NCBI RefSeq assembly: GCF_010730575.1
Contig: NZ_AP022614.1
Location: forward strand, 4,030,001 to 4,094,000
DNA: 64,000 bases
Reading direction: 5' to 3'
From: Mycobacterium parmense
GTDB lineage: Bacteria; Actinomycetota; Actinomycetes; Mycobacteriales; Mycobacteriaceae
Shown here: positions 3,730-22,514 of the stretch, piece after piece
How positions within the stretch are numbered: position 1 is the stretch's first letter
Layout: every line of letters starts with the position of its first letter
Translations under genes and position numbers: made by a program
Notes under the pieces: model-generated
Told to the model about the DNA's origin: nothing
Seen by the model: only the letters and a program-made list of their open reading frames with translations
Database searches by the model: none

Positions 3730-5640
3730 GTGAGCCTTCCGGCCCGGCTGCCGTCCCTACCCCGACCTGCCCGGGGGCTGGGAAGCGCGCTGCACGATCG
3801 TGACGGACTCGCCGACCGGCCATTGAGAAGCGCATGGCGACGGTTTGCGCTGGTGCTCTCCGACTACCGGTGGTACGTCCTCATCGCCGCCGGTCTGGCC
3901 GCCTTCGCGCTCGGCTGCATCGGCTGGTGGTCGGTGTTTCGTCAGCAGTTTCCGGCTGTGCGCCATCCCGTCAGCGACGTCATCTACTGGAGTCTGCAGA
4001 ATTTCGTCTTCAACGGCCCGACCTCGGCGGGGTTGCCGTGGCAGCTCGATGTCGCCCGATACCTGGCCCCGATCGTCGCGGGGTCGGCCACCCTCAGCGC
4101 GGTGAGTTCGCTGTTTCGTGATCGCGTCCAGCAGATGCGCATTCCGCTGATGCGCGACCACGTCGTGCTGTGCGGCCTCGGCAGCTATGTGGGCCTCGCG
4201 TTCCTGCGGCGCCTGCGACAGGATCAGATTCCGGTGGTGGCCATCGAAGTCGACGCCACCAATCCCCACATCGGTCTTTGCCGCAGCATGGGTGTACCGG
4301 TCATCATCGGCGACGCCCAGCGGCTGAAAACCTTGCAGGCGGCCCGGGCTCACCGCGCCACACGCGTGCTGGTGGTCTCCGCGGACGACGCGGTCAACAC
4401 CCAAATCGTCGCGACCTGGCGCGAACTGCCCGGCCGGCGCAGCCACCAACCGGGCTGCCTGGCTCGCATCAGCGACCCCGGGTACAGCGTGCTGCTGTGG
4501 ATTCAGGAACTCAAACGCGGCGATCCGCAACTGTCGGTCGATTACTTCAACATCGACGAAATCAGCGCGCGGCTGCTGTTGCGCGAACACCCCTTCGACA
4601 CCGGCCACGGCCAACCGCACATCCTCATAGCGCACCTGGATCCGCTCGGGGTCTGGTTGGTCTATCACGCGGCACGCGCCTGGCACGACGCGCGGGGCGA
4701 CAATCCGGACAAGCTGATCGTGACCGTGCTGGATCCTCACCCGCAAGAACGGATCGAGATGTTGCATGGTCAGCACTCGGCGCTGGAGAAGGTCTGCGAA
4801 TTCATCCCCTTCTCCACCACTACCCGCAACGTCGCCGATCTGACCGAGCACCACCGCCATCGCAACGTTCCCGCCCTCGGCTGGGCCTACGTGACTGCCT
4901 ACCAAGACAAAGACGCGTTCGAGGCGGCCCTGAAGCTGCGCCATGCGTTGCCTGCGGGCTGCCCCGTCGTCGTGGCGTTGTCCCGCCCGCACGGGGTGGC
5001 CGGGCTGCTGGGGGACGTGACCGAGGCCGAAGGGACCGGGCCGCTCGCCAACATCGAGGTGTTCCCGACGATGGAACGAACCTGCACCGTCGAACTCGTG
5101 CGCAGCGGCTCGTTCGAGTCGATGGCCCAAGCCATCCACGAAAGTTGGCGTCGAGAGCAATTGGCGGCGGGACGCCCGGCCCTCACGTGGGAAGAACTCG
5201 ACGAGCCGCGCCGAGAATCCAGCCGCGCCCAGGCGCGCGACCTCCCGGCCAAACTGCGCATGGTCAACTGTGCGATCACCCCCTTACGTAGTTGGGAGGC
5301 AACGGATTTCCAGTTCAGCGCCGAAGAGGTCGAGGATTTGGCGATCGAAGAGCATCAACGCTGGAACGACGAACGCATCGCCGCCGGCTGGACGCTGATC
5401 GACATGCCCGAGGTGAGCGACCCCCGGGAGCGGGAACGAATGGTAGAAGAAGCCAAGCGGCGCAAGCAGACTCCGTACCTGTTGTCGTGGGACAGACTGG
5501 TTTCCCTATACCCCCGGATCGCCGAAACCGACCGGATCTTCGCCCGTGCGATCCCGAGCATCCTCTGCCTGGCCGGGATGGAGGTCGTTCGCACCGACCG
5601 GCCGACGCCGACGAGCGCGAGGCGGGCCCCCCCGTCGTGA
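3730..5640 (+). CDS. RCK/TrkA-N channel-like membrane protein with C-terminal RyR domain
   Basis: From the likely GTG start at 3730 the protein is about 636 residues; a longer frame opens at 3625, but its extra residues look non-coding. A TM helix at about 49-68, a pore-loop-like segment (80-96) and a second helix (107-130) resemble a 2TM potassium-channel layout, though no TVGYG filter is visible. A TrkA-N Rossmann domain follows with the dinucleotide loop GLGSYVG at about 149-155, then a second Rossmann-like unit (about 297-375). Residues 463-620 form a RyR-type domain (AIHESW, a WEELDE segment, EEHQRW, AAGW and [10 protein letters not shown]). RyR and SLOG domains have been linked by comparative genomics to nucleotide-signal conflict systems. 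I infer a channel gated by a nucleotide ligand. The patatin and SLOG genes follow on the same strand. Confidence 0.8.
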
Positions 5641-5722
5641 GCCCGCGCACAACCGATCGCCGACGCCCCCGAAGCCCCGACGACCGCTTTGGCGCGGCAC
5701 CCGCGACACGATGGGAGGTCAC

Positions 5723-6847
5723 ATGCCCTACCGGGACAAGATGAACTCGCCGGGGCCGAAGAAACTGCTTGCCCTGGACGGCGGCGGCATCCGGGGGGTG
5801 ATCACCCTGGAGATACTGCAACGCCTGGAATCGGTGCTACGAGAACAGCTCGGCGCCGACGACGACTTCGTGCTGGGCGACTATTTCGACTACATCGGTG
5901 GGACCAGCACGGGCGCGGTGATCGCGGCGGGTCTGGCCAAGGGATTGCGCGTGACTCAGCTGCTGGATCTCTACACGACGCGCAGTGAAGAGATGTTCGA
6001 CCACGCCTCGCTGCGGCGCCGCTACTACTACCGGTACGGCAGCCGGCGGCTCAGAGGCGTACTGCAGAGCATCCTCGGCGAGGACACCACGCTGGGCAGC
6101 GCGGACCTCAAGACGCTGCTGCTCATCGTGGTGCGCAACGCCACCACGGATTCCCCTTGGCCGCTGAGCAACAACCCCCGCGCGGTGTTCAACGACCCCG
6201 GCCGACCCGACAACAACATGGCCATCCCGCTGTGGCAACTCGTGCGGGCCAGCACCGCGGCGCCGACCTACTTCCCACCCGAGATCGTCAGCGTCGGCGG
6301 GCGCGAGTTCGTCTTCGTCGACGGGGCGTTGACGATGTACAACAACCCCGCGTTCCAACTGTTCCTGATGGCGACGCTCGACAGTTACCGGCTGGCCTGG
6401 CCCGCAACGGAATCCGACCTCCTGCTGGTCTCGGTGGGCACCGGCACGTGCCCCAAGGCCGACGACCGCCTGCGACCGGGCGCGATGAATCTGCTGTTCA
6501 ACGCGAACTCCGTGCCGGCGGCGTTGATGCAGGCCGCGCTCACCGAGCAAGACCTGCTCTGTCGGGTGTTCGGCCGGTGCCGGCACGGCGCCCCGATCGA
6601 TTTGGAGATAGGTGACCTGATCGCCTCACCGGGTCTGTCGGACAGGCGACTGTTCAGCTACGTGCGCTATAACGCCGAACTGTCCCGAGCCGGACTGGAC
6701 GAATTCGGCCTGCACGACGTGATCCCCGAGCAGGTGCAACGACTGGACTCGGTGACCCACGTCGGCGATCTGCGCAGGGTGGGCCACGCGGCGGCCGGTC
6801 AGGTGGCCCTCGAGCACTTCGCCGGATTTCTCCAGGCACGCCGGTGA
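5723..6847 (+). CDS. Patatin-like phospholipase
   Basis: A 374-residue patatin-fold lipid acyl hydrolase. The oxyanion-hole motif is DGGGIRG at 19-25, the nucleophile elbow GTSTG at 60-64 (Ser62), and the dyad Asp is Asp200 in VDGAL, so the catalytic set looks intact. The ATG at 5723 is preferred because GGGAGG ends four bases upstream; the ATG at 5711 overlaps that site. Bacterial patatins of this size include effectors that degrade membrane phospholipids when switched on by a nucleotide signal. No signal peptide is visible, so it is probably cytosolic and acts on the inner leaflet. Its stop overlaps the start of the SLOG gene by four bases (GTGA), indicating translational coupling and probably a shared complex or signal. 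Confidence 0.88.
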
Positions 6848-7590
6848 CGACCCCCTTCGGTATCGAGCTCTCCGGCGCGGTGACGGCGCCCGCGGTGCGC
6901 GTCGGCACGGTGGGCGAGTTGACAGACGCGCTGGACGCGCTGGGACTGCGCCCGCCGCGGCCGACCCTGGTGGTCGCAGGAGGTGCGGCCGGGCTGGAAG
7001 ACGCCCGCACGGACGGCCTGCGCCCCGTGTTCGGCACCGGCATCGTCCCGGCGCTGCAGGAGTCCGGGGCGGTCGCGATCGACGGGGGCACCCGGGTCGG
7101 CGTGATGCGGCTGCTGGGGGAGGCGCGCGCGGAAAGCCGGGCGCAGTTTCCCCTCGTGGGGGTGCTGGCCGCCGGCCCGCTGGGACTGTCGACCGAAGAG
7201 GATCGCCCGGGCGTCCACCCGGAACTGGAGCCTCATCACACGCACTTCCTCATCGTGCCCGGCCAACAGTGGGGCGCGGAGGCGCCGTGGATCGCCCGGA
7301 CCGCGACCGCGCTCGCGGGCTCGGCGCGATCCCTGACGGTCTTGGTCAACGGTGGGCAGATCGCGTACAGCGACGTCGAGCACAGCGTCGGCGCCGGCCG
7401 CCCGGTGGTGGTGATCTCCGGTTCGGGGGGCACGGCCGAGGCGCTCGCCGCCGCGCTCGCCGGCGCATCAACGGATGACCGCACCTCGGCGCTGGTCGCG
7501 TCCGGGCTGGTCAGTTCGGTCGCTGTCGGCGAGCCCGCGGCCCTGGCTGAGCTGCTCGCCGCGACCTTCGCCGGGCCGGCGAACGCCTGA
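6844..7590 (+). CDS. SLOG-fold protein of the TRPM/LSDAT type
   Basis: A 248-residue Rossmann-like protein resembling the prokaryotic LSDAT family, the SLOG domain also found at the N-terminus of TRPM channels. Key features in order are VVAGGAAG (43-50), [10 protein letters not shown] (79-88), GVLAAG (106-111), [12 protein letters not shown] (129-140), [13 protein letters not shown] (166-178) and the phosphate-binding-like [12 protein letters not shown] (189-200). SLOG domains bind or process nucleotides and nucleotide sugars such as ADP-ribose derivatives. No membrane segment is present, unlike in TRPM. The GTG start overlaps the patatin stop. I infer that it senses or makes the ligand that controls the patatin, or the RyR channel upstream. 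The family call is strong; the ligand is unknown. Confidence 0.8.
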
Positions 7591-7661: not shown

Positions 7662-8147
7662 CTAGGGGAACGACTCGACATGGATCGGCGACAACCGCCC
7701 CGGCCGCCGGACGATCCGCAGGCCCGCGGAAGCCAGCAGTTGCGGGATCTCGCGGACCAGGATCCGGTCGTAGTCGGCGATGTCGGGCGGCAATTGGTCG
7801 AAGGGCACCAGATACGGGGTCGTCTTGCGGCCGGGGTCGTTGTCGCCGGCGGTCCAACCGTCCGCCAGGCGTTCTTGCATCCAGCGAACGTGCTCTGCGG
7901 CGGCGAGACTCTCGATTTCCCCTTCGGTGAAGGCGAAGTCGTGCGACCCGCCCTCACCCAGTGGCGCGATGTCGCACCCGATGGCGTGGAGCTTGGCGGG
8001 GATGTCCCGCGCATGGTTGCGGCTGGATTGTTTACGCGATTCGTCCAGCTCTTCCCACGTCGGCGCGGGCTGGCCCGCGCCTATCCGTTCGCTGCGCCAA
8101 CGCTGGTGAATGGCCTGCGCGATCGGTTCGACCGAGCCGCTCCACAT
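7662..8147 (-). CDS. Stand-alone RyR-domain protein
   Basis: A protein of about 161 residues made of little more than one RyR-type domain. It closely tracks the C-terminus of the RCK channel-like protein encoded at 3730-5640: AIHQRWRSERIGAGQPAPTW, an EELDESRKQSSRNHARDIPAKL segment, AEHVRWMQERLADGW and KTTPYLVPFDQL. I placed the start at the ATG at 8147 because homology begins there; the ribosome site is weak, and the frame extends upstream into the preceding gene. It is the last gene of a minus-strand set with the nucleotidase and kinase. As a soluble copy of the channel's presumed ligand-binding domain, it could buffer the signal or compete with the channel. Domain identity is well supported; function is inferred. 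Confidence 0.8.
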   Translation of the reverse strand: MWSGSVEPIAQAIHQRWRSERIGAGQPAPTWEELDESRKQSSRNHARDIPAKLHAIGCDIAPLGEGGSHDFAFTEGEIESLAAAEHVRWMQERLADGWTAGDNDPGRKTTPYLVPFDQLPPDIADYDRILVREIPQLLASAGLRIVRRPGRLSPIHVESFP

Positions 8148-8211
8148 CGGCTCAACGATACCGTCGTTGCCGCAGGTTGAGGCGAAGCCGGCGCAACGGC
8201 GGTCCGGTGCC

Positions 8212-8781
8212 TCAGCGCGCGGCTTCCAGAATCTCGACGAGATCGGGATCATCCCAACCCCGTAGCCGTAGGGTCGCGCTGGACTGCCGATTGTAGGGAC
8301 GGTCGAATACGACGTGACGCCACGTGGCCGCACCGCCGTTGGTGTCGACGTCCGGCCTGTCGTCGATCAGGGCGAGCGCGTCGTGCCGATATTTGGCCTT
8401 GTCGATGATCGCCTCCCGGACTACCTGTTCCCCGAACCGAGGCACGAAATGTGTTCGCAGCCAGGCGACTTTGCTCTGGGCCGACCGTTCGTTCCTGGAC
8501 AGCGGCGCCGAGCAGATCCGGGGCCGGTAGCCGGCGTCGAGCAGGCGCTGCCAACCCTGCAGCGCGTTGTCCACCAGCGGCAGCTCGAGGAAGAAACGTG
8601 GGTGGCTGGTGATCAGTTCGACGTGTGCGAGGTGTTCGGGGTAGTCCTCGGCGAGGTGGAAATGGGTTCGGGCCACACGGTCGATCTCCGGCGGAAGCCG
8701 GTCGAGGACCGCGGCGTCGAAGTCGGCCAGGACGCCGTCCATATCGACCAGGACGACGCTACCGCGGCCAGGCCTTGCCAT
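8212..8781 (-). CDS. 5'(3')-deoxyribonucleotidase (NT5C family, HAD superfamily)
   Basis: A 189-residue HAD phosphatase. Motif I is DMDGVLADFD at 13-22, with nucleophile Asp13 and general acid Asp15. A motif II-type segment follows (CSAPLSRNERS), then a Lys-containing segment (IDKAKYRHD) and acidic motif IV (LIDDRPDVD). This arrangement matches the NT5C family that dephosphorylates deoxynucleoside monophosphates. It lies 12 bp after the dNMP kinase-like gene on the same strand and 64 bp before the stand-alone RyR gene. A kinase and a nucleotidase with opposing actions next to RyR and SLOG genes suggest that a (deoxy)nucleotide level or derivative is being set or read. It appears complete. Confidence 0.85.
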   Translation of the reverse strand: MARPGRGSVVLVDMDGVLADFDAAVLDRLPPEIDRVARTHFHLAEDYPEHLAHVELITSHPRFFLELPLVDNALQGWQRLLDAGYRPRICSAPLSRNERSAQSKVAWLRTHFVPRFGEQVVREAIIDKAKYRHDALALIDDRPDVDTNGGAATWRHVVFDRPYNRQSSATLRLRGWDDPDLVEILEAAR

Positions 8782-8793
8782 TCGACGATTGTG

Positions 8794-9441
8794 TCATTGG
8801 GGGCGCCGGTGGTCCGACGGCGGCACGGCGCCGGCCAGGAATTCACGGGCCCGCTCGTAGGTTGCCGCGGTCGTCTTCGCCGTCGTGTCGATCAAGGTGG
8901 CGGGGATGCCCGCGAAGGGCGCCAGGATCGGCAGGCCCGCCTCGACGCAGTCGTAGAATCGCGCGGTTTGCCGGTGCTGCTCGGCGATGAATTCCGGCGT
9001 CTCGTACTTGTCGCCGTTCTCGTCCGCGGCGATCCGGCGGTAGGCGACGTCGGGGTCGGCGGTCAGGTAGATGATGGCCGAGGGGCGCTGGAGTTCCGCG
9101 GGCCGCAGCAGCGAGTCGGCTTGCTCGTAGCTGACGCCTTGCACCGCGCCGAAAATGAAGTTGTCCATCCAGCCTCGCTGGGACAGCACCAGCGGATACT
9201 GCCGACGCCACTGGCGGATCAGGGTGTCGGTCAATCGCGCGTCCGCGGCGAACAACAGACGATCCGTGTGGACATCGCCGAACGCCGACCCGTCGCCCGA
9301 CATGTCCAGGTACTGACGCACGAAGGAGTGGTAGGGCAACCGGAAACTGAATCCGCCCAGCGCCTCGGCCAGGGTCTGCAGCAGCGTCGTCTTGCCCGAG
9401 CCGTCCAGCCCGGTGATCGTGATCCACGGTGCCGTTGCCAC
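8794..9441 (-). CDS. dNMP/thymidylate-kinase-like P-loop kinase
   Basis: A 215-residue P-loop kinase starting at GTG 9441. Walker A is GLDGSGKT at 11-18. A basic/aromatic RGW segment (SQRGWMDNF) follows, then a conserved hydrophobic strand and a lid-like region (PDVAYRRIAADENGDKYE), consistent with the thymidylate/deoxynucleoside kinase family. It is too divergent to call the housekeeping Tmk. It would phosphorylate a nucleoside mono- or deoxynucleotide. It is the first gene of the minus-strand set that continues with the deoxynucleotidase and RyR protein, and it is transcribed away from the TIR-STAND gene across a 377-bp intergenic region. Confidence 0.75.
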   Translation of the reverse strand: MATAPWITITGLDGSGKTTLLQTLAEALGGFSFRLPYHSFVRQYLDMSGDGSAFGDVHTDRLLFAADARLTDTLIRQWRRQYPLVLSQRGWMDNFIFGAVQGVSYEQADSLLRPAELQRPSAIIYLTADPDVAYRRIAADENGDKYETPEFIAEQHRQTARFYDCVEAGLPILAPFAGIPATLIDTTAKTTAATYERAREFLAGAVPPSDHRRPQ

Positions 9442-9818
9442 CCGGTCAGCCTGCCGTAACCCGTTCTTGTCCAGGCGAACTCGCCGACCGACAACCGCAC
9501 CGCGCGACCCGCATAACCGACCTTTCTGCGCGCATGCACCGTATCGCGTCGCAGGGCCGGCAGCAAAGGGTCGGGCGCACCCCGCCGCCTCGTCGAGGAG
9601 GTTTGCTGGTTCACTTCCGCCGGCCCACGCAGGCCGTTATCGTTGGTCGTGGCTGACGAGGGCCGGCAGCCCGGGTGATCTGTGTGGCGTTGCTGTGAGT
9701 GAATCGATCGACGGGAAGTCGCCGATGTTCGGATCGAACGATGGCGGTCCGGGCTGCTAGCCCGGACTTCGGCGCCGCGGCCGCTTCCGCGTGCGGCGCG
9801 AACGCGGGCCGGTGAACG
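9442..9818. other. Divergent intergenic region between the kinase and TIR-STAND genes
   Basis: About 377 bp with no supportable gene. It should carry the promoters of the kinase operon (leftward) and of the TIR-STAND gene (rightward). A perfect 9-bp inverted repeat lies at 9747-9767 and is listed separately. Confidence 0.45.
9747..9767. promoter_or_regulatory. Perfect inverted repeat upstream of the TIR-STAND gene
   Basis: Arms GTCCGGGCT and AGCCCGGAC are separated by GCT. The repeat ends 51 bp before the TIR-STAND start codon. It could be an operator or a hairpin in the 5' leader. It has no T-tract, so a terminator is less likely. Confidence 0.45.
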
Positions 9819-12800
9819 ATGGCCCGCATCTTTCTGAGCCACTCCAGCGTCGACAACGCCCTCGCCGTCGGTCTGCGCGACTGGCTCAAGGATGAAGGCT
9901 GGGACGACGTATTCCTCGACCTCGACCCCGACCGGGGCATCACCGCGGGAGAGCGTTGGGAGCGCGCGCTCAACGACGCGGCAGCCCGTTGCGAAGCCGT
10001 GCTGTTCTTGGTGACCGGGGCGTGGCTGCGATCGCACTGGTGTCTCAAAGAACTTCAACTCGCCCGGAAGTTGGACAAGCGCCTGTTCGGCGTGCTGCTC
10101 GATACCTTCGAACCCGCCGACCTGCCTGCCGAGCTGAGCGACTCCTGGCAAGTCGTCGATCTGGCTTCGGGACGCGATCACCGCCAGTTCCGCGTCACGC
10201 TGCCGCGGACCCAGGAGGAATGCCACGTCACCTTCTCGCGCGAAGGCCTCAAGCGGCTGCGCCGCGGCCTGGTCAAGGCGGGCCTGGACCCGCGGTTTTT
10301 CGAGTGGCCGCCCCCCGGCGACGAGGACCGTGCGCCGTATCGGGGCCTGCGGGCGCTGGAGGCCGACGACGCCGGGATCTTCTTCGGCCGTGACGGCCCG
10401 ATCTTCGAAGCGCTCGACCTGCTGCGCGGAATGCGCGAGGAGTCGGCGCCGCGGCTCATGGTGCTCCTGGGGGCCTCCGGCGCAGGCAAATCGTCCTTTC
10501 TGCGCGCCGGTCTGTTCGCGCGAATAGCCCGCTACGACAGGGACTTTCTGCCCCTGCCGATCGTGCGGCCGCAGCGGGCGGCCATCACCGGCGAGACCGG
10601 CTTGCTGCGGGCGCTGGAGGTCGCGCGGCGATCCGCGCGGATCAGCCTGTCGCGCAACGAACTTCGAGCCGCGGTGAACGAGGGTGCTCTGTCGCTGCGG
10701 CCGGTCCTGCGAGACCTCGTCGTCGCGGCGACACCGGAGACGGGCGAGAGTGACGCCCCGACCAGGCCGCCCGCACTGGTCCTGTCGATCGACCAGGGCG
10801 AGGAGCTGTTCCGCGCCGAAGGCCATGCGGAGTCGGATCAACTCCTGGCCCTGCTCCAGGAGTTGCTCGGCGACACCACACTCGCGCTGATCGTGGTGAT
10901 CGCGATCAGATCCGACTCCTATTCCCAACTGCAGGAAGCCAAGGCCCTCGAGGATGTGCGCAAAGTCCCCTTCGATCTCGGGCCCATGCCGCGGGGCTCC
11001 TATGCCGAGGTGATCAAGGGCCCCGCGACCAGACTGGCGGAGACGACGCGGCCGTTGAGAATCGACGACCCGCTCGTCACGACACTTCTCGGCGACATCG
11101 AGGCCGGGGTCGCCAAGGACGCGCTGCCGCTGCTCAGCTTCACGCTGGAACGTCTGTACCTCGAGAACGAAGGGACCCGAAGCCTCACCGTCGCCGATTA
11201 CCGCAGCCTGGGTGGTATCCAGGGCTCGATCGAAGAAGCCGTCGAGCAGGCGCTCGCCGCCGAGACGTCCGCGCCCACCCCCGACGATCTGGCGGCCCGA
11301 CTGGCGCTGCTGCGCCGCGGGCTCATTCCGTGGCTTGCCGACATCGACCCCGACACCGGCGCGCCACGGCGTCGCGTAGCCCGGCTGTCGGAGATCCCGG
11401 CCGATTGCCGGCCGCTCCTGCAGAACCTCGTCGAACAGCGGCTGTTGACAATCGATCTGGCCCGCACCGGCGAAACGACCATCGAGCCGGCCCATGAGGC
11501 ACTGCTTCGGCAGTGGAGCCAGCTGGGAAGCTGGCTGACCGAGGATGCCGCATTGCTGGCCGTACTGGACGGCGTCAAATGTTCGGCGCGCGACTGGGTC
11601 AAGGCCGGCCGCAGCGCCGCATGGCTCGTGCACGCGGCGGACCGACTCGCGGCCGCCGAGCGGCTCAGTCAACGGCCGGATCTCGCAGCGAATCTCGACG
11701 GTTCCGACAGCGAGTATCTCTCCGCCTGCCGCACCGCCGAGAACGAACGGATCGACGCCGAGAGGCGAAAGCGTGAGGCCGAACTCGCGGCCACCAGAAC
11801 GCTCGCTGCCGCCGAGAAGGACGCCAAGGAAGCAGCCGAGGCCCGCGCCGCCGAAGCCCACGCCCACACCGTGGTTCTGCGCAGGCGTTCGCGCGTGTTG
11901 CGCGCCGTGCTGGCGGCGACGGTGCTGGTCGCGGTGGTGGCCGTGATCGCGTCGTTCCAGGAGGTCAAAGAGCAGCGTTTGGCGCACCGCAACGCCCAGG
12001 ACGCGGCGGTCCAGAAGCTGGTCTCCCAGGCCCGGGCGAGCCTGGGCACTGCGGGCAACGCCGTCACGGCGACCGCCGCCAACACCGGCGACGATGTGAA
12101 GGCGTTCCAGGAGCTGTTGGCGGCCAACGCTTTAGCCACACGCCCCGATGACGAACCCCTTCTCGACGCCCTCGTCAAACGATCCAGCACGGACCTCATC
12201 GTCAACGGTTCCACCCCGGTGGTCGGTGTCGCGGTCGCCGAAGCGGGCCACCGGCTGGCCGTGGCCGACCGGGACGGTCTGCGCATCTGGGACACCAGCG
12301 CCGCGCAGTGGCTGGAGAATCTGCGCAACGGCGCGTGCGCGACGACCCGTCTCGAACCGAACCGTGAGAGTTTCGGCTGCCGGTTCCTGCCCGCGGCGGC
12401 AGAGCACCTGACGACTGTCGCCGTCAGCGCCGACGGCCGCGTCGTGGCGGCCGGCACTGAGGAGGGGACCGTCCAGGTCTGGAACATCACCGACCCGCAG
12501 CCCATGCCGCGCTCGGACCCGCAGGCCCACCAGGGACGCGTTAGCGGCGTCGCGTTGAGCCGCGACGGCCGACTGCTCGCCTCTTCCGGTGTCGACGGAT
12601 TCGTCGACCTGTCGAACTCCGACGGCACCGGCGCGGTCCGGATGGGCTGGAAACCCGCCGGAGCGGTCTTCACGGTGGCCTTCGACCACGCCGCGGACAG
12701 ACTGGCCGCCGGCGGAGCCGACGGATCTCTGCGCATCTGGGACGTCGCCAAGGTGGCGCCCGGGGAAACCAACCCGCCCGTGGTCACACAACCGGACGCG

Positions 12801-14285
12801 CACCGCGACGGCGTCATGAGCGTGGCGTTCAGCCCGGATGACCACCTCGTCGCTTCCGGTGGCGCCGACAACACGGTCTCGTTGTGGGACAGCGAGCGAC
12901 TGGGCCGGCAGTGGCAGTCACCGACACACGGAGCCCAGGGGCACACGGCGGCGGTGACCAGCGTCGCCTTCAACGCGGAAGGCACCAAGCTGGTCTCGGG
13001 CAGCAACGACAAGACGGTCCAGCTGTGGGACGTCGCGCGGCGGCAACGCATCGGCGATCCCCTGATCGGACATCAGGGACTGGTCCTGAGCGTGGCAATG
13101 ACCGGTGACGAAATCATCAGCGGCGGAAACGAACACGCGCTGCGCTTCTGGAACGCCGTGATCGGTCAGCCACATCAGGAACCCCTGGTCGGGCATGCGG
13201 GTCCCGTGACAAGCGTGGCCATGGGTCCCGGTGGCAGCCGGATCGCGTCGGCGGGCGTGGACGGCGCGGTCGTCCTGTGGGACCCCTACACCGGAACACA
13301 GATCAAGAAAATGCCCGGATCTGCGGGTGTCATCACCCGCGTCGCCTTCGAGCACGCCGGCGACACGGTCGTCTCCGGCAGCGCCGACGGGAAGATCCGG
13401 CTGTGGAACACGACCAGCGACGCCGTCGGGATCCTCGATTCGCGACTGCCGATCACCGCCATCGCCGTGAGCCCCGACGATCATCTGCTGGCCTCCGCGG
13501 CGATCGACGGGCAGGTCACGCTCTGGGAGCTTCCGTCCGGGCGTCCCAGGCCGCTCGAAAATAAGGACCATGCAATCGTTTTCGATGTCGCATTCAGTCC
13601 GCGCGGCGACCGGTTGGCCTCCGGCGGCGTTACTGGGAGCGTGCGCCTCTGGGACCTGGACGGCCACGAGGTCTGGGAGAAGAACGCCGCGGCCGAGCTG
13701 CCGCAACCGTTCAGCAACGAACACCATCTGGCGGCGGGACGACCGGGCGAGGTACTGGGGGTCGCCTTCAGTCCCGACGGCCGACGGCTGGCGACCGGGA
13801 GCACCGACTGGGGCACAGCCAACCTCGCGGCGGCCGTCGGGGTGATCCAACGTTGGGATGCCGACACCGGCACGCCCCTGAGAGGTCCCGCGCAAATCGG
13901 CGACGCAGTGATGGGCCTCGCCTTCACCTCTCAATCAACCGACCCCTCCCAGGACCTCATCGTGGCCGGCAGCTTCGACCCTTACGACGTCCGGCTGTGG
14001 ACCGCTGACGGCGCAAGCCAGTACACGTTCACCGGGCACCAGGCGCAGGTGGTCAGCGTCGCGGTCAGCCCCGACACCGCTTTCATCGTCTCCGGCAGCG
14101 TCGACGGCACGGTGCGAATCTGGCCGAACCCGAATCCCCGCAGGGTATCTCCCGCAGAAGCGCTGTGCGCCAAGCTGGCCACGACGATGAGCGAAAAGAA
14201 CTGGCAGTCGTGGGTGTCGCCGCAGATTCCTTATCGTGGGTTGTGTCCCGGACTGCGGCCCACCCCAAAAGAAGTGCAGGATTAG
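9819..14285 (+). CDS. TIR - STAND NTPase - transmembrane - WD40 repeat protein
   Basis: A single 1488-residue protein. Residues 1-130 are a TIR domain (IFLSHSSVDN at 4-13; SHWCLKEL at 72-79, with Glu78 at the position used by NAD-cleaving TIRs). Residues about 170-620 are an nSTAND-type NTPase with the YRGL and FFGRDG entry, Walker A GASGAGKS at 218-225 and Walker B-like LSIDQGEEL. A charged, Ala/Glu-rich coiled region leads to one TM helix near 690. From about 795 to 1440 there are roughly a dozen WD40 repeats (VAFSPD, LASGG and VRLWD-type strands). STAND proteins oligomerise when their repeat sensor binds a target, which would activate the TIR. I infer a threat or stress sensor that cleaves NAD or makes a nucleotide signal. 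The gene stands alone on this strand, between the nucleotide-kinase operon and the cyclase operon. Confidence 0.88.
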   Translation: MARIFLSHSSVDNALAVGLRDWLKDEGWDDVFLDLDPDRGITAGERWERALNDAAARCEAVLFLVTGAWLRSHWCLKELQLARKLDKRLFGVLLDTFEPADLPAELSDSWQVVDLASGRDHRQFRVTLPRTQEECHVTFSREGLKRLRRGLVKAGLDPRFFEWPPPGDEDRAPYRGLRALEADDAGIFFGRDGPIFEALDLLRGMREESAPRLMVLLGASGAGKSSFLRAGLFARIARYDRDFLPLPIVRPQRAAITGETGLLRALEVARRSARISLSRNELRAAVNEGALSLRPVLRDLVVAATPETGESDAPTRPPALVLSIDQGEELFRAEGHAESDQLLALLQELLGDTTLALIVVIAIRSDSYSQLQEAKALEDVRKVPFDLGPMPRGSYAEVIKGPATRLAETTRPLRIDDPLVTTLLGDIEAGVAKDALPLLSFTLERLYLENEGTRSLTVADYRSLGGIQGSIEEAVEQALAAETSAPTPDDLAARLALLRRGLIPWLADIDPDTGAPRRRVARLSEIPADCRPLLQNLVEQRLLTIDLARTGETTIEPAHEALLRQWSQLGSWLTEDAALLAVLDGVKCSARDWVKAGRSAAWLVHAADRLAAAERLSQRPDLAANLDGSDSEYLSACRTAENERIDAERRKREAELAATRTLAAAEKDAKEAAEARAAEAHAHTVVLRRRSRVLRAVLAATVLVAVVAVIASFQEVKEQRLAHRNAQDAAVQKLVSQARASLGTAGNAVTATAANTGDDVKAFQELLAANALATRPDDEPLLDALVKRSSTDLIVNGSTPVVGVAVAEAGHRLAVADRDGLRIWDTSAAQWLENLRNGACATTRLEPNRESFGCRFLPAAAEHLTTVAVSADGRVVAAGTEEGTVQVWNITDPQPMPRSDPQAHQGRVSGVALSRDGRLLASSGVDGFVDLSNSDGTGAVRMGWKPAGAVFTVAFDHAADRLAAGGADGSLRIWDVAKVAPGETNPPVVTQPDAHRDGVMSVAFSPDDHLVASGGADNTVSLWDSERLGRQWQSPTHGAQGHTAAVTSVAFNAEGTKLVSGSNDKTVQLWDVARRQRIGDPLIGHQGLVLSVAMTGDEIISGGNEHALRFWNAVIGQPHQEPLVGHAGPVTSVAMGPGGSRIASAGVDGAVVLWDPYTGTQIKKMPGSAGVITRVAFEHAGDTVVSGSADGKIRLWNTTSDAVGILDSRLPITAIAVSPDDHLLASAAIDGQVTLWELPSGRPRPLENKDHAIVFDVAFSPRGDRLASGGVTGSVRLWDLDGHEVWEKNAAAELPQPFSNEHHLAAGRPGEVLGVAFSPDGRRLATGSTDWGTANLAAAVGVIQRWDADTGTPLRGPAQIGDAVMGLAFTSQSTDPSQDLIVAGSFDPYDVRLWTADGASQYTFTGHQAQVVSVAVSPDTAFIVSGSVDGTVRIWPNPNPRRVSPAEALCAKLATTMSEKNWQSWVSPQIPYRGLCPGLRPTPKEVQD

Positions 14286-14295
14286 CCGATACCCG

Positions 14296-14781: not shown

Positions 14782-14866
14782 CGCGCCTCCGGTTACATCG
14801 GGTTGGCGTCAAGTATCGCCGAGATCGCCGGCCTACGGAACACGTTTGGCCGCACGTCCCGCGTTC

Positions 14867-15866: not shown

Positions 15867-17807
15867 TCAGTCGGCGGCGCCGGAGGCCGCGGGAGTCGCC
15901 TCGCGCCACTCGTCGATGTCCCCCAGCCGCCACGCACCCCCGCCCAGCAAGTGCAGGAATCGGTCGTGGCGCCGCACGACGTTTCGCCGGTGGGCCACGC
16001 TCACCACGATCAGGTCGGGCTCGTCGGCGCGCAGCATCTCGTAGAGGGCGTACTCCTGCCCCTCGTCGAGCGCGGAGGTGGACTCGTCCAGAAACACCGC
16101 CTTGGGCCGGAAGAGCGCGATTCGAGCGAAAGCGATCCGCTGCTGCTCGCCGGGCGAGAGCACCTTGGCCCAGTCCTCGACCTGGTCCAGGCAGTCGGTC
16201 AGATGCCCCAGCGCCACCTTCGTCAACGCGGCCCGCAGCGCGTCATCGGCGAAATCGCCGGCAGCGGCGGGATAGGACACCACTGCGCGCAGGGTGCCCA
16301 GCGGCACGTACGGCAGCTGGGATACGAACATCACGTCGGTGGCCTCTGCACCCGGGCGGCGCACCGTGCCCGATGCGAACGGCCACAGCTGCGCGAGGCT
16401 GCGCAGCAGCGTCGATTTCCCGCTCCCCGAGGGACCGACGACAGCCAACGACTCACCGGCCTGCAGCCTCAGCTCCACCGGATCGATCAGTTGGACACCC
16501 GCCGGCGTGCGGACCTCGACACCCGAAAGCTGCAGCGCGCCGTCGTCGCTGACACCCGAAGTGAGCTCTGGAAGATCACGGGCCTTCCTGTTGGCGTCGA
16601 TCAAGCCGTTGAGCCGGAGTATCGATGCGCGGTAGCTGGCGAACGAGTCATAGGAGTTGCGGAAGAACGACAACGAGTCCTGTACCGCGATGAACGCCCG
16701 CATCGACTGCGTGACATCCCCGAGCCTGATCGCCCCGGCGAACACCCGCGGCGCCTGCAGGACGAACGGCAGCGGGTTGATCGTCTGGGTAACCGCGGCG
16801 TTGAACGCCATGAACCCCACCGTCCGGCGCACGTAGCGGCGAAAGTTCTCGATGATCGCCGAGAACCGGTTCGCAAGATATGTCTTTTCGGCCGTCTCGC
16901 CGCCGTAGAGACCGATCGCCTCCGCGGAGTCACGCAACCGCACCAGCGCGAAACGGAAAGCGGCGTTGTACAACTCGTTGCGGAAGCTCAACCGAATCAA
17001 GGGATGCCCGATGAAGAACGAAACCACGGTGGCGCCGAGCACGTAAGCGATGACGATCCAGAACATCGCCCTGGGGATCGACACACCGAACAGCGCCAGC
17101 GGTCCCGACAATCGCCACAGGATCCCGCCGAACGCCGCCACCGTGAGCACGGCCTCCACCGAACCGAACGCCAAGGTGTTCACGGTGCGAAAGCCGGGGC
17201 GGTCGGGCCCCGGACCGACCCCCGCCGTGAAGATGTCGATGTCCTGTTGGATGCGCTGGTCGGGGTTGTCGATCGTGTGGTCGATGAAGCGGCCGCGGTA
17301 ATAGGCCCGTCCCGTGAGCCAGTCGCCGACCAGGCGATCGGTGAGCCAGACCCGCCAGCGAATGATGAACCGCTGCAACACGTATTGGTCAACCACCGCC
17401 CGGACGACGTGGACGGTCGCGATCACGCAGAACGTCGCTATGGCTACCCAGAAGCCGTGTATGCCGGCGTTGCGCGCCGCGGCGTTGCCGGCCGCGGCGC
17501 CCTGGAACGCGATCTGCAGCGACGAATACAAGTCGTTGTTGTAGTAGCTCAGGAGCACCTCGATGCGCACCGCGACCACCACAAGGGCCAACAACCCGAG
17601 TAGCGTCCCCCAGACCGGCAGGCTCCCGGCCCCCCGGAAGTAGTCGCCGGTGATCCGCCAGAACTGCGCGCCCCAAACGGTGTATCGGGCGATCAGCACC
17701 GCGACGAGGAGAAAACACAACGCGCTGATGGCCCACACGCTCGCGACCCAGACCAGCGAGCCGACGAGCTCATCCCCCCAGTTGATGGATGGCCGATATG
17801 TGTTCAA
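15867..17807 (-). CDS. BacA/Rv1819c-type ABC transporter (fused permease and ATPase)
   Basis: A 646-residue fusion of an SbmA/BacA-like membrane domain and an ABC ATPase. It strongly resembles mycobacterial Rv1819c, a cobalamin and hydrophilic-solute importer: RRYVRR and SLSFFRN are recognisable, as is a segment starting IDxTIDNPDQRIQQD. Walker A is VVGPSGSGKST near 455, the signature LSPGEQQRIAFAR near 548, and Walker B FLDESTSALDE. Several TM helices occupy the first 330 residues. The TTG start has a strong AAGGAG site. It is the third gene of the operon after the RyR channel-like and cyclase genes, 76 bp downstream of the latter. It may be a paralogue rather than the orthologue of Rv1819c, so I give no symbol. 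In this context it may move a small solute linked to the signalling genes. Confidence 0.85.
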   Translation of the reverse strand: MNTYRPSINWGDELVGSLVWVASVWAISALCFLLVAVLIARYTVWGAQFWRITGDYFRGAGSLPVWGTLLGLLALVVVAVRIEVLLSYYNNDLYSSLQIAFQGAAAGNAAARNAGIHGFWVAIATFCVIATVHVVRAVVDQYVLQRFIIRWRVWLTDRLVGDWLTGRAYYRGRFIDHTIDNPDQRIQQDIDIFTAGVGPGPDRPGFRTVNTLAFGSVEAVLTVAAFGGILWRLSGPLALFGVSIPRAMFWIVIAYVLGATVVSFFIGHPLIRLSFRNELYNAAFRFALVRLRDSAEAIGLYGGETAEKTYLANRFSAIIENFRRYVRRTVGFMAFNAAVTQTINPLPFVLQAPRVFAGAIRLGDVTQSMRAFIAVQDSLSFFRNSYDSFASYRASILRLNGLIDANRKARDLPELTSGVSDDGALQLSGVEVRTPAGVQLIDPVELRLQAGESLAVVGPSGSGKSTLLRSLAQLWPFASGTVRRPGAEATDVMFVSQLPYVPLGTLRAVVSYPAAAGDFADDALRAALTKVALGHLTDCLDQVEDWAKVLSPGEQQRIAFARIALFRPKAVFLDESTSALDEGQEYALYEMLRADEPDLIVVSVAHRRNVVRRHDRFLHLLGGGAWRLGDIDEWREATPAASGAAD

Positions 17808-17883: not shown

Positions 17884-19743
17884 TCACTTGTCGACCGCGG
17901 CGATGTCCGCGACCCTCTCGATATTCCCCAGTACGGCTGGGCCTTTGCCGTCGGCGCGGCGGAGCAGGAACATCCGGAGCCGGCCGTAGTGCTTGGCCAT
18001 CTCCGTATTGCCGACGTAGTCGCACGAGAACTGACCGGCATTGTGCAGCGCCAGCACGGCTGCGAACGTCTCCGTGACATAGACACAGCCTTCCGGTGTG
18101 ATCGGCTCGATGCGGGCGGCGCGACTGACGTGGGCTCCATAACAACTGGGACGGTCGGTGATCGGATCGACCGACTCATAGACCGGCCCCAGGTGACCAC
18201 CGAGGCGCAACTTGAGGGTCTCGGGCAGTCCGGCCGCCCCGAAGTCGACCGCGCGCATCGCGTCCTGCATGTCAAGTGCGCAGGCGGCGGCGCGGTCGGC
18301 ATCGCGAAAGACCGCGTAAATGCCGTCGCCCCAGGTATTTATCAACGAAATGTGCCGCGTGTGGCGGCGCGTTACGACGCCCAGCGCGCCCATCACCTTC
18401 TCGGTGAATGCCGGAAGCTGAACGTCGGTCAGTTGGCTGAAGCCGTGAATGTCGCCGAACAGCATCGCTCGTGTGTCGCGGCGTCCCCGGGCAACCTTCG
18501 GACGGTGCGGCGGCGCAGGCTTTCCGGCGATGCCGCCCGGGCCGATCGACACGATTTTGACCGGGCTCGCGTCGTCGTCGACGGCGCCGTCCAGCCTCAG
18601 TTGCGTCAACGGGGCATTCAGATGGCGGGCGCAGAGGCAGGCCAGGCCCTCCGCCAGGCTGTTGCCGTAGGTGAAGAGCTGATCGTCGCCCAGATACGCG
18701 TCCTCCGTCGCAAAGCGCACCGTCTTGGCCGCGGCCAGACAGGCCTCGAAGCGCTTGACCCAGGACTCACCCGCCGGGCGCACCGAATGTGCGACGAAGT
18801 CGTCGATGGCGAAGGGCAGAACGACGTTGAGGGCCGCGCCGTGTTCGAGTAGCGCCTCGGCGAACAGTATGTCGGCGCCGGAGGCCAGCGAGCCATAGGC
18901 GGCGCCGACCCGCATCCCGTTGAGCAGAGCGGCAATCCGACCGGCGAGCGCTGCCGCGTGCACCGCCGAAAGCCCCCTGTTCTGACCGGGCGACAGCGCG
19001 GTTGTCGGGCCGAGGAAATGGACGATGGTGGCCGGCTCGAAAGCGCCGAGCACGCTGGAGTCGAGCTTCTTGATCCGGGCGATGCGCGCGAGTTGCCGGC
19101 CGGTGGTGGCGAAGGCGGCGTGATCGCGGCCGGCAGCTGCGACCACCCGGTCGACCAGCCCGCGCGCCGCGTCGAGGTCGCCCCTGACCAGATTGGCCTC
19201 GAGTGCCGTCGCCAGCACCCAATAGCGATCGGCGGCACCGGCCGCGGCCGGGTCGGCCATGCGCGGCGCGAGAAGTTCGAGCACCTCGCCGGCGAGCCGG
19301 CCGGCCGCGTCGGCGTCACCGGCGAACAGGGCCAGGGTGGCGGCATTGACGGCCGGGTAATAGGCCGCCGGGTCGTTTGCGGCGGCGGCCGTGCGGAAGG
19401 CGCTCTCATAGAGGGCGCGGCCCTCGCGAAACAGCGCCGAGCGGGCCTCGCCCGTCTCGGCGAAGGCCTGGTCTTTCTTCAGCCGGCCCAGCAGGCTTGC
19501 GACGTCGGTCTCCGGCCGGCCGTCGAGGCCGAGTTCGTGGAACTTGCCGAGCGCAAGTGCGGTCGCGCCCGCGTTGGCGAGGCTGAGTACCGCCCGATGG
19601 GCGAGACCGACATTGCCGGGAAACACTTGCAGCGCGTCGGTCGCCACGTCGTAGGCGCGGAAGAATTCGCCTTGGTTGAAGAAGGTGTCCACCTCGGCCA
19701 GCCGGGCATCGGCGGTCACGGGGGAGCTTTGCGTATCGGACAT
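17884..19743 (-). CDS. TRAFs-binding/TPR - SLOG-like - nucleotide cyclase protein
   Basis: A 619-residue soluble protein. The ATG at 19743 has GGAGG about seven bases upstream; the longer frame is rejected. Residues about 10-240 are Ala-rich helical repeats of the TRAFs-binding (MAP3K-type TPR) kind. Residues about 255-395 look like a SLOG-type Rossmann domain (GSLASGADILFAEAL at 284-298, VVLPF, GDDQLFTY). Residues 425-600 are a class III cyclase with metal Asp431 (FGDIHGF) and Asp473 (NTWGDG), and Arg541 (VSRAARIE) in the transition-state position. It probably makes cAMP or another cyclic nucleotide. It begins 17 bp after the RyR channel-like gene and precedes the BacA-like gene. TRAFs-binding, SLOG and cyclase modules occur together in predicted conflict-signalling proteins. 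Confidence 0.8.
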   Translation of the reverse strand: MSDTQSSPVTADARLAEVDTFFNQGEFFRAYDVATDALQVFPGNVGLAHRAVLSLANAGATALALGKFHELGLDGRPETDVASLLGRLKKDQAFAETGEARSALFREGRALYESAFRTAAAANDPAAYYPAVNAATLALFAGDADAAGRLAGEVLELLAPRMADPAAAGAADRYWVLATALEANLVRGDLDAARGLVDRVVAAAGRDHAAFATTGRQLARIARIKKLDSSVLGAFEPATIVHFLGPTTALSPGQNRGLSAVHAAALAGRIAALLNGMRVGAAYGSLASGADILFAEALLEHGAALNVVLPFAIDDFVAHSVRPAGESWVKRFEACLAAAKTVRFATEDAYLGDDQLFTYGNSLAEGLACLCARHLNAPLTQLRLDGAVDDDASPVKIVSIGPGGIAGKPAPPHRPKVARGRRDTRAMLFGDIHGFSQLTDVQLPAFTEKVMGALGVVTRRHTRHISLINTWGDGIYAVFRDADRAAACALDMQDAMRAVDFGAAGLPETLKLRLGGHLGPVYESVDPITDRPSCYGAHVSRAARIEPITPEGCVYVTETFAAVLALHNAGQFSCDYVGNTEMAKHYGRLRMFLLRRADGKGPAVLGNIERVADIAAVDK

Positions 19744-19760: not shown

Positions 19761-22514
19761 TCAACCGCCGGCCGGTGTGGCATCCGGGTTCGACGGCTGA
19801 TAATGGCGGGCGAACTCGTCGCCCGGAACCACCCATCGCTCGCCCTGGCAACCCTCGACGACCCAATCCGACGCGGTCGCGACGGACTGGCCTAGGACTG
19901 TGCCGACAATTTCGCCGTCACGCGCAGCGCGGGCGAACACGTCGGCCTTCGGCCGCCATCGGTTCTCTCCGAGATGTGCATAGGACGAGCGAAAGGCCTT
20001 GTTGCGCAACGGCCAGCTGCTGCCATCGCCGTCAGTGACCTCCCAATCCCCGGCGCGGGCCCGCATCGCTTCCCCCGACCGCGTGGTCCAAGTCCAACCC
20101 CTGATGTGCCGCTTCGCGGTCACGTCGCCGATCCGCCGGTAGCGTTGCCACAGGGGCCGGGACCGCAGGCCCAGTTCGCGCAGGGAATACAACGTGGTGG
20201 CCAGGAAATCCAGGGCACCGTCGACCTTCTCGGGACTCCTGCTGACCAGGGTCGCCCACGGGACCAGATCGGGGCGCCGCTTGCGGGTGTTGTCCCGGGT
20301 GGGTCCGTAGCGCCATCCGTATCTGCGCAGGTAACGGGCCCAGTCCTCGTGCTCGGCTTCGGCCATCGCCATGGCGGTGTCGCGGTCGAACCCGATGACG
20401 GCGAGCCGCTGCAGCGGTGCGGCTTGCGTCAGCTCCGCGGATACCGGCTCATCGGGCGCCGTACCGTATGCGTCCCAGGTGTGCCTGGCGATCTTTTCCA
20501 CCATCCACAGCGTGTTTCGCACGACGCGCCGATTCGACCCGCGGTAGAACTCGTCCAGTTCGGCCCACGGTTTGGTGACGTCGGAGTCGTGACCGGCCTG
20601 GGCCGCATAGCGCTCATGGATGAGCATCGCGGCCCGTTCCCAGGGGTCGTGGCCCCGGCCGTACGGCACGTTCATGGCCAGGCGGAATGTGTGCAACTGG
20701 CCCGCCAACGGAGCAATGGTGTCCTGACGCGGGTCGATCTTGGGGTCCTGCACGAAGATCGGCATCGTCGGGAACCGGGCGGCCAGGCGGGTGCCGAGCA
20801 TGGCGTCGATTTGAGCCTGGCCCGCCGGCAGCGCGAAAATCACAGCGGCCCCGTGATTTTCGGTGTCCGGGCCGGGTGGTGAGTGACTTTCGAGTGCGTC
20901 CTGGGCGCGATGCTCTGTTGGCGCGTGCCCCGGTTCGTCGGCGGCGCGGTGACCGTCGCCGTGAGCTGTCACCTCCCCCGTCGTGACGGCGGACACAGCC
21001 GGGCCGTTCTGATCGGCTGCGGCCGGGCGGCTCGGCGTCTGCCAACGCTGCGACGCCCTCAGGGCGATCAGTTTCCAGGCCTGCGTCAACGTGCGCGCCC
21101 GCCTGTGTAGCCCCTTCGAGCCGTTGGTATCCCCCTCGTCGGCGCCGGCTCGGGCACGGCCGGTCGCCGGTTCACCATCCGGCGGCTGGGTTTGCGCTTT
21201 GTCGCCGCGGCGCGCGCCGGCCTCGCCGTCCTTGGCCGGCCCGCCATCGTCTTCGGGTTTGATCACGCCGACCAACGATGCGAATGCGGGTAACTCGTTC
21301 ACCGCGGTCAGCCATTGGTCGGTGGCCGAGTAACCGAGCGCACGGTGATAGACGTCGATGTCTTTTCGATACTCGTCGGCGTTCTTCGCCACGATGGTCA
21401 GCGACGGCAGCTCAGGGGCGTTGGGTGCGGTGTAATAGCCGCGCTCGATCTGACGGCGCCTCAGATCAGCACACAACGCCAGCGTCAACCCCGAAGTGCC
21501 GCAAGTGATGACGCGGGTCGTCTGACCGGTGGCGATGATGCGGTCGAGAAGCCGCTCGGCGGTCACTTCATAGATGCCGAGCGCGCTCGCTCCCCACAGG
21601 GGGTCCGATCCCCCCAGCCGTTGAGCACGCCACGACTCGGCCTGCCAGGGATCGTCGATGCGCACGATCAGCGGCAGTCGCTGCTTGTTGGTCACTGCCC
21701 GCAATCGCGCTTCGATGGCCGCCAGACGGTGCAGATTCGTTGTGGGGCTTGCCGTGAGCAGATAGAGCTGACGAGTCTTCTTCCACAACGGCAGCAGCTC
21801 GAGGCTGCCGAGCTTGTCGAGATCTGTGACGATGACGCGGGCGCCTTCGGCGCGCAGGTCACGAACCGCGTTGAGCTGGCCCCGGGAAACGATCAGCGCC
21901 AGCTGGCTCTTGTCCTTCCTCACCGCGCGGGCGACCGCGGTGACCAGCGACCGCGAATCGTTGTCGAAGTCGACGACCGCGGTGACCGAGCGCGCAACCT
22001 GCACGCGCATCCGGTCGACTTCGGTGGAGAACACCGACACGAAAATCGCGATCAGTCCGACGTAGAGGACGAACGAGCCGGCGATCGCGGCGATGTCCAA
22101 CGCGACCGGCGTCACGCGGGGGCATCCGTTGGCCGCGGAGTACCCCTGCGAGCGGCCCCGAACGGTTCCCAGCGCCCAGACGATGGCGCTGACGAACGGC
22201 AGATTCTTCGGGTCGTGGCAGCGAGAGAACGAACTGAAGGCCAGCGCGGCACTGGAGGTGAGCAGGATCGCCATCACCCCCGCGGGCCGGGCGCCCGGCC
22301 GCTCGCGATCTTGTGTGCGGTAGCTCGACACGCACACCGCGGTCAGGCCCGCCCCGACCACTATCTCCGTGGCCACCGAGCCCGGACGGCCGAACCACCA
22401 GACCGGCGGAACCCACGAGAACGCCGCGACCAGACAGAGGTAGGCCACCGACGTCCACACCGCGGCGATCAGGGCGCGCCGCAACACCATGAAGGCCTTT
22501 TCTCGGCGCGTCAC
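19761..22514 (-). CDS. Channel-like membrane protein with Rossmann, RyR and two PGDYG-like domains
   Basis: A 917-residue protein from GTG 22514, which has GGGAGG five bases upstream. Hydrophobic helices lie at about 14-34, 47-63, 79-95 and 138-164. A divergent TrkA-N/Rossmann region spans about 180-420. A low-complexity, charged, Pro/Gly-rich linker (about 420-555) follows. Residues 626-785 form a RyR-type unit (LIHERY, a PWAELDEFYRGSNRR segment, EAEHEDWARYL, YGWRYGPTRD, PDLVPWATL). At the end, two copies of a PGDYG-like motif appear (AGDWEVTDGDGSSWPL at about 821 and ASDWVVEGCQGERWVVP at about 881). The same overall plan occurs in the 3730-5640 protein, so the two are probably parallel channels. 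It heads the operon with the cyclase, and a cyclic or ADP-ribose-type nucleotide is a plausible ligand. Confidence 0.78.
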   Translation of the reverse strand: MTRREKAFMVLRRALIAAVWTSVAYLCLVAAFSWVPPVWWFGRPGSVATEIVVGAGLTAVCVSSYRTQDRERPGARPAGVMAILLTSSAALAFSSFSRCHDPKNLPFVSAIVWALGTVRGRSQGYSAANGCPRVTPVALDIAAIAGSFVLYVGLIAIFVSVFSTEVDRMRVQVARSVTAVVDFDNDSRSLVTAVARAVRKDKSQLALIVSRGQLNAVRDLRAEGARVIVTDLDKLGSLELLPLWKKTRQLYLLTASPTTNLHRLAAIEARLRAVTNKQRLPLIVRIDDPWQAESWRAQRLGGSDPLWGASALGIYEVTAERLLDRIIATGQTTRVITCGTSGLTLALCADLRRRQIERGYYTAPNAPELPSLTIVAKNADEYRKDIDVYHRALGYSATDQWLTAVNELPAFASLVGVIKPEDDGGPAKDGEAGARRGDKAQTQPPDGEPATGRARAGADEGDTNGSKGLHRRARTLTQAWKLIALRASQRWQTPSRPAAADQNGPAVSAVTTGEVTAHGDGHRAADEPGHAPTEHRAQDALESHSPPGPDTENHGAAVIFALPAGQAQIDAMLGTRLAARFPTMPIFVQDPKIDPRQDTIAPLAGQLHTFRLAMNVPYGRGHDPWERAAMLIHERYAAQAGHDSDVTKPWAELDEFYRGSNRRVVRNTLWMVEKIARHTWDAYGTAPDEPVSAELTQAAPLQRLAVIGFDRDTAMAMAEAEHEDWARYLRRYGWRYGPTRDNTRKRRPDLVPWATLVSRSPEKVDGALDFLATTLYSLRELGLRSRPLWQRYRRIGDVTAKRHIRGWTWTTRSGEAMRARAGDWEVTDGDGSSWPLRNKAFRSSYAHLGENRWRPKADVFARAARDGEIVGTVLGQSVATASDWVVEGCQGERWVVPGDEFARHYQPSNPDATPAGG

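Follow-up and report, generated by a model that had tools for sequence, protein, structure and literature searches.

In the available part of a May 2026 preprint (PMC13232231), RyDEP, the gp78 protein of mycobacteriophage DyoEdafos, is described as a ryanodine receptor (RyR) domain protein that hydrolyses both 2'cADPR and 3'cADPR. Its ligand contacts are H75, W78, H100 and D117; H100 contacts phosphate, and a His and the Asp are the catalytic residues. The same part of the text reports binding of 2'/3'cADPR by six of eight further phage RyR proteins, cleavage by none of those tested, and nanomolar dissociation constants for two phage RyR proteins; a clade of bacterial and viral RyR sequences is also mentioned. 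The preprint, as far as it is available, treats phage RyR proteins and animal ryanodine receptors, and host pairs of a TIR protein and a RyR channel are absent from it.

Here a bacterial locus is analysed, in which RyR domains are found on one small standalone protein and on two predicted channels. The window, i.e. the whole stretch of 64,000 nucleotides that was analysed, corresponds to positions 4030001-4094000 of contig C1, in a single-contig genome of 5.95 Mb. The pair formed by a TIR protein and a RyR channel is the recurrent core of this locus, which the initial annotation had not singled out.

Gene content of the locus

The interval 3730-22514 of the window starts on the plus strand with a gene for a 2TM channel-like protein carrying a C-terminal RyR domain (3625..5640; TrkA_N E 1.4e-11); its true start is uncertain, TTG 3823 or GTG 3730 being likely. 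It is followed on the same strand by a patatin-like phospholipase resembling CBASS effectors (5711..6847; Pfam 7.8e-25) and by a LSDAT_prok protein, a SLOG of the TRPM type (6844..7590; Pfam 1.2e-59), whose gene has a 4-nt overlap with the patatin stop. The patatin matches the PADLOC Effector model at 9e-42 and NCBIfam CBASS_lipase at 4.1e-32, the latter below its cut-off. Three genes are then found on the minus strand: a standalone RyR domain protein (7662..8147; Pfam 1.2e-14), whose ORF extends from 8333 and whose start is likely at 8147 from the comparison of relatives; a NT5C-like deoxynucleotidase of the HAD type (8212..8781; Pfam 1.9e-14); and a dTMP-kinase/dNK-like nucleotide kinase (8794..9441; Pfam Thymidylate_kin 4.7e-10).

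The candidate signal producer is encoded on the plus strand (9819..14285) and displays an N-terminal TIR_2 domain (5.5e-18), a nSTAND1 NTPase and WD40 repeats, the last two also recognised by Pfam; it gives a ThsB-like PADLOC match at 2.3e-7 and keeps the Glu of its SHWCLKE motif. Three genes follow (14296-17807), coding for a protein with no Pfam match, a beta-lactamase-like protein and a SbmA/BacA-like ABC transporter; the Pfam scan revealed no signalling family above its cut-off among them. The interval ends with two genes on the minus strand. The first one encodes a TPR-S region (1.3e-9), a middle domain and a class III nucleotide cyclase (4.2e-11) on a single protein (17884..19743), while the second produces a 4TM channel-like protein with four hydrophobic segments and a Pfam RyR match of 7e-9 (19761..22514; ORF 19761-22574). 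The likely ATG of the cyclase gene is located 17 nt past the stop of the 4TM channel gene, on the same strand. Just beyond the interval, the window contains an alpha/beta-hydrolase-class III cyclase fusion (25709-27094) and, at 36340-37641, a Na/Ca exchanger family protein.

These matches agree with the patatin, the TIR-STAND-WD40 protein, the nucleotide kinase and the deoxynucleotidase of the initial annotation. Of the two SLOG-type domains that it had proposed, LSDAT stands, and the second one, in the cyclase protein, was not recovered: residues 270-440 match no Pfam SLOG family and, in a single-sequence HH comparison, none of four LSDAT sequences. The likeness of this middle domain to SLOG is one seen by eye. 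As for the cyclase, previously placed on a TRAFs-binding/SLOG scaffold, the catalytic domain is retained; TRAFs-binding falls below its cut-off, so that TPR-S is the better description.

RyR domains and channel architecture

The RyR family (PF02026, cut-off 27.4 bits) is recognised directly in the standalone protein (54.7 bits) and in the 4TM channel (36.3 bits). The 2TM channel of the window, taken alone, reaches 16.7 bits, below the Pfam cut-off; the third RyR protein of the initial annotation is nevertheless sustained by its family, since the relative at locus L048 scores 43.4 bits, a profile built from 11 members of the family retrieves RyR R12 sequences in the PDB (E 3.8e-23), and the RyR part of the channel is 54% identical to the standalone RyR of ORF 7662-8333.

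Modelled with AF2 (pLDDT 82.9, pTM 0.73), the 2TM protein is predicted to comprise, in this order, TM1, pore helix, TM2, RCK1, RCK2 and RyR. Its fold matches are GsuK (E 1.3e-10), CASTOR/DMI1 and TrkA; one list of these matches covers mainly residues 8-468, not the RyR part, and contains no RyR chain. Hydropathy alone reveals only TM1 in the window copy, and two TMs in relatives, e.g. at L044. A TVGYG-type selectivity filter is absent from all the 23 2TM-channel sequences that span the pore, and the protein models as a RCK-type channel devoid of the K+ filter motif.

The 4TM channel is composed of an N-terminal TM hairpin, a TM-pore-TM unit assigned by analogy, a RCK-like region and the RyR domain, with a PGDYG-like C-terminus that remains below the family cut-off. 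Its AF2 model, built from only 3 sequences, has a pLDDT of 43.5 and was set aside.

Association of RyR and TIR genes in the genus

In a sample of 148 genomes of the genus, the window genome included, RyR was found in 60 genomes, at 69 sites grouped in 66 loci. A TIR_2 domain lies within 10 kb of at least 62 of the 66 loci, counting TIR among the matches listed, whereas about 0.5 would be expected by uniform placement; RyR loci are related to each other, and thus the 62 are not 62 independent events. For single RyR sites, a TIR is present within 2, 5 and 10 kb in at least 46, 56 and 64 of 69 cases, respectively, and misses may be overstated, TIR positions being those of the 150 matches listed. 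The loci that have no TIR among the matches listed are those of genomes G032, G041, G089, where the channel match contains an in-frame stop, and G121.

At the genome level, 59 genomes have both domains, one has RyR only (G089), 20 have TIR only and 68 have neither. The association gives a Fisher p of 7e-24, which ignores kinship and was obtained with the 77 listed TIR genomes (18 TIR only, 70 neither). A control set was provided by 81 RCK/TrkA_N hits devoid of RyR, hand-picked among the matches listed and deriving for 67 of them from RyR-bearing genomes: no TIR occurs within 10 kb of any of them (0/81), the closest distance being 17.2 kb among the matches listed.

Twenty loci were read in detail, 12 of them fetched for the 2TM channel or the small RyR protein and 8 for the 4TM channel, and at least 19 have a TIR within 10 kb among the matches listed. 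They fall into 12 flanking contexts, one context being defined by at least two flanking gene clusters in common, and their layouts are convergent, divergent or on the same strand. At one chromosomal site, a common TIR cluster has as its neighbour either a 2TM channel (L048, L050, L051) or a 4TM channel (L058); where tested (L048), this cluster is TIR-PknH_C. Other partners are TIR-nSTAND1-WD40, a TIR pair (L053) and TIR-RDD (L084). The Glu of the TIR motif is aligned in all the 52 TIR sequences compared, a set in which some hits are weak and their alignment uncertain, some contigs occur twice and a few RyR-less loci contribute TIRs; such a conserved residue fits NADase-type catalysis. The 4TM channel of the window lies 10.0 kb from the TIR gene, just beyond the limit, and adjoins the cyclase instead. 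The window genome has in total 11 TIR_2 matches, one of which is inside the window among the 9 matches listed.

The initial annotation had also proposed that nucleotide-based conflict signalling occurs at this locus. ADP-ribose signalling gains indirect support from the genus-wide RyR-TIR link and from the phage RyR proteins that bind or cleave TIR products, as described in the available part of PMC13232231.

Distribution beyond the genus

Strong as it is in the genus, the TIR-RyR link weakens outside it. In named genomes, a pattern scan identified 24 loci, at least 7 of which also belong to the genus survey, so that the two counts overlap; a TIR was found in 21 of the 24, using a local profile from 19 neighbours. 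TIR-bearing loci include those of Nocardia vaccinii, of a Dehalococcoidia MAG and of a Nitriliruptorales MAG. The three misses are L075, where a 2TM and a 4TM channel are adjacent, L065, where they are about 4 kb apart, and L080, which is the G121 contig. Among 346 Actinomycetota genomes, RyR is present in 17, five of which are from the genus; at the sites outside the genus, a TIR lies in the fetched stretch at 5 of 14 (four stretches are shorter than 10 kb), and no TIR_2 match was found in 4 of the 12 non-genus RyR genomes.

Several loci show further combinations of the same modules. Patatin relatives occur beside TIR-STAND and a RyR channel at L055, L060 and L110, and another patatin is present at L053. 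At L100, one protein contains RelA_SpoT and RyR together with TPR-S (24.7 bits, cut-off 27.6) and LSDAT (22.9 bits, cut-off 25.4) matches, and may represent an alarmone-type synthetase feeding a RyR receptor; it is encoded on the plus strand (9514-12222), beside a RCK-RyR channel on the minus strand (7904-9625). At L090, TPR and a weakly matching LSDAT accompany RyR in one protein, and at L103 (478-5410) two TIR proteins, TIR-PASTA and TIR-PASTA-SBP_bac_3, are neighbours of a strong LSDAT-SLATT fusion. The two fusions and the L103 neighbours favour the idea, put forward in the initial annotation, of modules belonging to one signalling network.

Other arrangements were observed. At L088 (9826-12352), from a relative belonging to the same taxonomic order, the gene of a TIR protein that weakly matches PNP_UDP_1 overlaps a standalone RyR gene. 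On the Caballeronia plasmid pSBC2-4 (L113, 3794-6948), a TPR-S protein with a cyclase-like match is encoded downstream of a 463-aa protein that has no match in Pfam; the two genes share 4 nt, and their arrangement recalls that of Pycsar. In Arthrobacter phage Lewando (L115), gp74 (2992-3432) matches the small RyR protein and precedes by two genes a nicotinamide riboside transporter resembling PnuC; such an arrangement would suit RyR proteins that supply the recovery of NAD+.

Conservation of the individual genes

The genes of the interval differ widely in their distribution. Relatives of the 4TM channel were counted by hand in 52 of the 147 other genomes of the genus, i.e. the 60 matched genomes minus the window genome itself and seven with weak, partial or decayed matches (G028, G068, G075, G079, G089, G115, G121). 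In G075, G089 and G115, whose genomes are of 3.2-3.3 Mb, the 4TM RyR channel persists as decayed copies, in fragments interrupted by in-frame stops. Matches spanning the length of the 2TM channel, whole or split in two, exist in 11 of the 147 genomes; on plasmids, this channel gave no match at E 1e-10. The viral relatives of the small RyR protein amount to one locus over 58 residues, with 9 phage records, none of which covers 80% of the query.

The whole 3730-22514 interval was considered as one conserved island and rejected: LSDAT occurs in 1 and the kinase in 2 of the 147 other genomes, and, its generic cyclase domain aside, the TPR-S-cyclase protein in none. In the 251 Actinomycetota genomes, the window genome included, the latter has one weak 86-residue match among the 250 others, and 7 plasmid records were retrieved, none covering 80% of the query. 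The single modular system of 19 kb envisaged initially is thus not borne out, LSDAT, kinase and TPR-S-cyclase being rare in the genus; likewise, of the co-occurrence expected across mycobacterial genomes, that of the whole interval was not found, and what recurs is the TIR gene near the RyR channel. Only genome G058, among the fetched loci, has seven gene types together, namely a 4TM-type channel, the small RyR protein, NT5C, the kinase, the patatin, LSDAT and TIR-STAND-WD40, within 18 kb and in another order; NT5C and the kinase adjoin the small RyR gene there too. Conversely, the kinase of G060 is present without RyR or TIR matches, and for this reason NT5C and the kinase may be accessory.

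Proposed mechanism and alternative explanations

The pair of TIR protein and RyR channel is probably a two-part system similar to Thoeris, in which the TIR product would gate the channel, and patatin/LSDAT and the soluble RyR protein would be accessory; this is the interpretation that we favour, with appreciable room for doubt. From the gene content, the proximity of TIR and RyR, the predicted fold of the 2TM protein and its conserved residues, we infer the ligand, the gating, the ion and the role in defence. The TIR protein would detect an insult, probably a phage, by means of its STAND/WD40 portion or of another sensor part, leading to TIR assembly; the assembled TIR, whose relatives produce immune signals of the cyclic ADP-ribose type, would convert NAD+ to a signal derived from ADP-ribose, 2'cADPR or 3'cADPR being the probable forms. 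Bound at the C-terminal RyR domain, adjacent to the RCK ring of the channel, this signal would open a pore without a K+ filter motif, causing depolarisation and then growth arrest or death. The patatin could provide a second, parallel membrane-damaging arm, whose nucleotide sensor is likely LSDAT, while the soluble RyR protein, a paralogue of the ligand domain of the channel, may act as a buffer or as a hydrolase ending the signal. The 4TM channel and the cyclase are perhaps a separate second unit, where the cyclase replaces the TIR neighbour; this last point is a guess.

The nature of the ligand is suggested by the comparison with RyDEP, in which equivalent residues were assigned by motif and spacing and not by an alignment with RyDEP. 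On this basis, three of the four RyDEP ligand residues appear to be kept in the 2TM channels: H504 and W507, in an EHxxW motif, are found in 24/24 sequences and D563 in 23/24, and the site equivalent to H100, preceding a conserved Pro, is occupied by T, D or S in 23/24. His, Trp and Asp are kept in all four standalone RyR proteins compared, with a His-to-Asp spacing of 41 in the window protein vs 42 in RyDEP. The 4TM proteins keep His in 4/5, Trp in 5/5 and Asp in 0/5.

Retention of the catalytic His and Asp of RyDEP in the 2TM channels and in the soluble RyR protein, as judged by motif and spacing, could also point to a clearing or safety module: the RyR domain of the channel would sequester or hydrolyse the TIR signal, as RyDEP does, and gating would depend on NAD(H), ADP or Ca2+ at the RCK ring. 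Such gating is that of GsuK, which the 2TM fold resembles and which is present in the PDB with NAD and with ADP bound. This explanation is unlikely, however, since the 4TM type has no Asp and yet is near TIR too; moreover, in the available part of PMC13232231, six of the eight other phage RyRs bound the ligands and none of those tested cleaved them, and therefore kept residues do not imply catalysis.

We also regard as improbable a NAD/ADP-ribose homeostasis or osmotic-stress circuit, which would couple ion flux to the state of NAD and be unrelated to phage defence. The GsuK structures with NAD and ADP would suit it, as would the TIR-PknH_C proteins, which combine a TM segment with an extracellular domain of the PknH type; but the distribution is patchy, the contexts are many, the TIR-STAND-WD40, patatin and LSDAT-SLATT neighbours are of the conflict type, and phages carry RyR counter-proteins, according to the available part of PMC13232231. 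Finally, it is very unlikely that the whole 3730-22514 interval forms one network, with TIR and cyclase feeding one set of RyR/SLOG receptors: the seven gene types of G058, and the L100 protein beside its RCK-RyR channel, with TPR-S and LSDAT below cut-offs, suggest that such modules are wired together elsewhere, but the cyclase protein, generic cyclase domain apart, has no match in the 147 other genus genomes and a weak 86-residue one in the 250 other Actinomycetota genomes, three genes without such domains part the two halves, and the G060 kinase stands apart from RyR and TIR.

Comparison with known systems

The proposed two-part system resembles Thoeris, in which the TIR protein ThsB is combined with a nucleotide-gated effector, in having a TIR, with the catalytic Glu kept, near an effector of a domain family reported to bind cADPR isomers. 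The effector is different: here it is a RyR-RCK channel, whereas the ThsA proteins of Thoeris are reported to be SIR2-SLOG or macro domain proteins; no SIR2 or macro-domain match was found among the scanned island proteins. With RyDEP and the phage RyR sponges, the window proteins share the PF02026 domain and the His, Trp and Asp positions, again by motif and spacing; differently from RyDEP, they are host-encoded and channel-fused, and the H100 site is non-His in 23/24 channels. Indeed, RyDEP degrades or sequesters the signal, while the RyR domain of the channel is read here as receiving it.

As for the channel itself, GsuK and MthK, which are RCK-gated 2TM channels, have the same TM1-pore helix-TM2 arrangement and RCK domains; the window family differs in the absence of a TVGYG-type filter (23 sequences) and in the extra RyR domain. 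The plant nuclear channels CASTOR/DMI1 have 13% identity to the 2TM channel and, to our knowledge, no RyR domain.

The island also shares single parts with TRPM2-type LSDAT sensors, with the CapV patatin of CBASS and with the class III cyclases of Pycsar. No CD-NTase, the CBASS enzyme, was found among the scanned island proteins, which give patatin effector matches only. In Pycsar the PycC cyclase is paired with an effector. The cyclase gene of the window lies next to that of the 4TM RyR channel, in the same orientation, but its product matches no PADLOC model at E 0.01. No title or abstract opening among the papers listed concerns a host RyR channel paired with TIR, and an earlier description is possible in the Yirmiya 2025 preprint on TIR systems or in Burroughs 2015 NAR.

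If the Thoeris-like interpretation is true, TIR immunity would gain an ion-channel effector and a function would be assigned to two gene types that co-occur in 59 of the 148 sampled mycobacterium-type genomes; furthermore, cADPR-type gating of a channel via RyR domains would become testable in a small purified system. The RyR domain is homologous at the sequence level to the R12 repeat of animal ryanodine receptors, whose channel architecture is otherwise unrelated. Tentatively, and with doubt prevailing, TIR-RyR pairs may then confer immunity through ion channels gated by cyclic ADP-ribose. They would in that case add a new class of effectors to TIR signalling and correspond, in prokaryotes, to the control that cADPR is said, amid long dispute, to exert on ryanodine receptors via the R12 domain.
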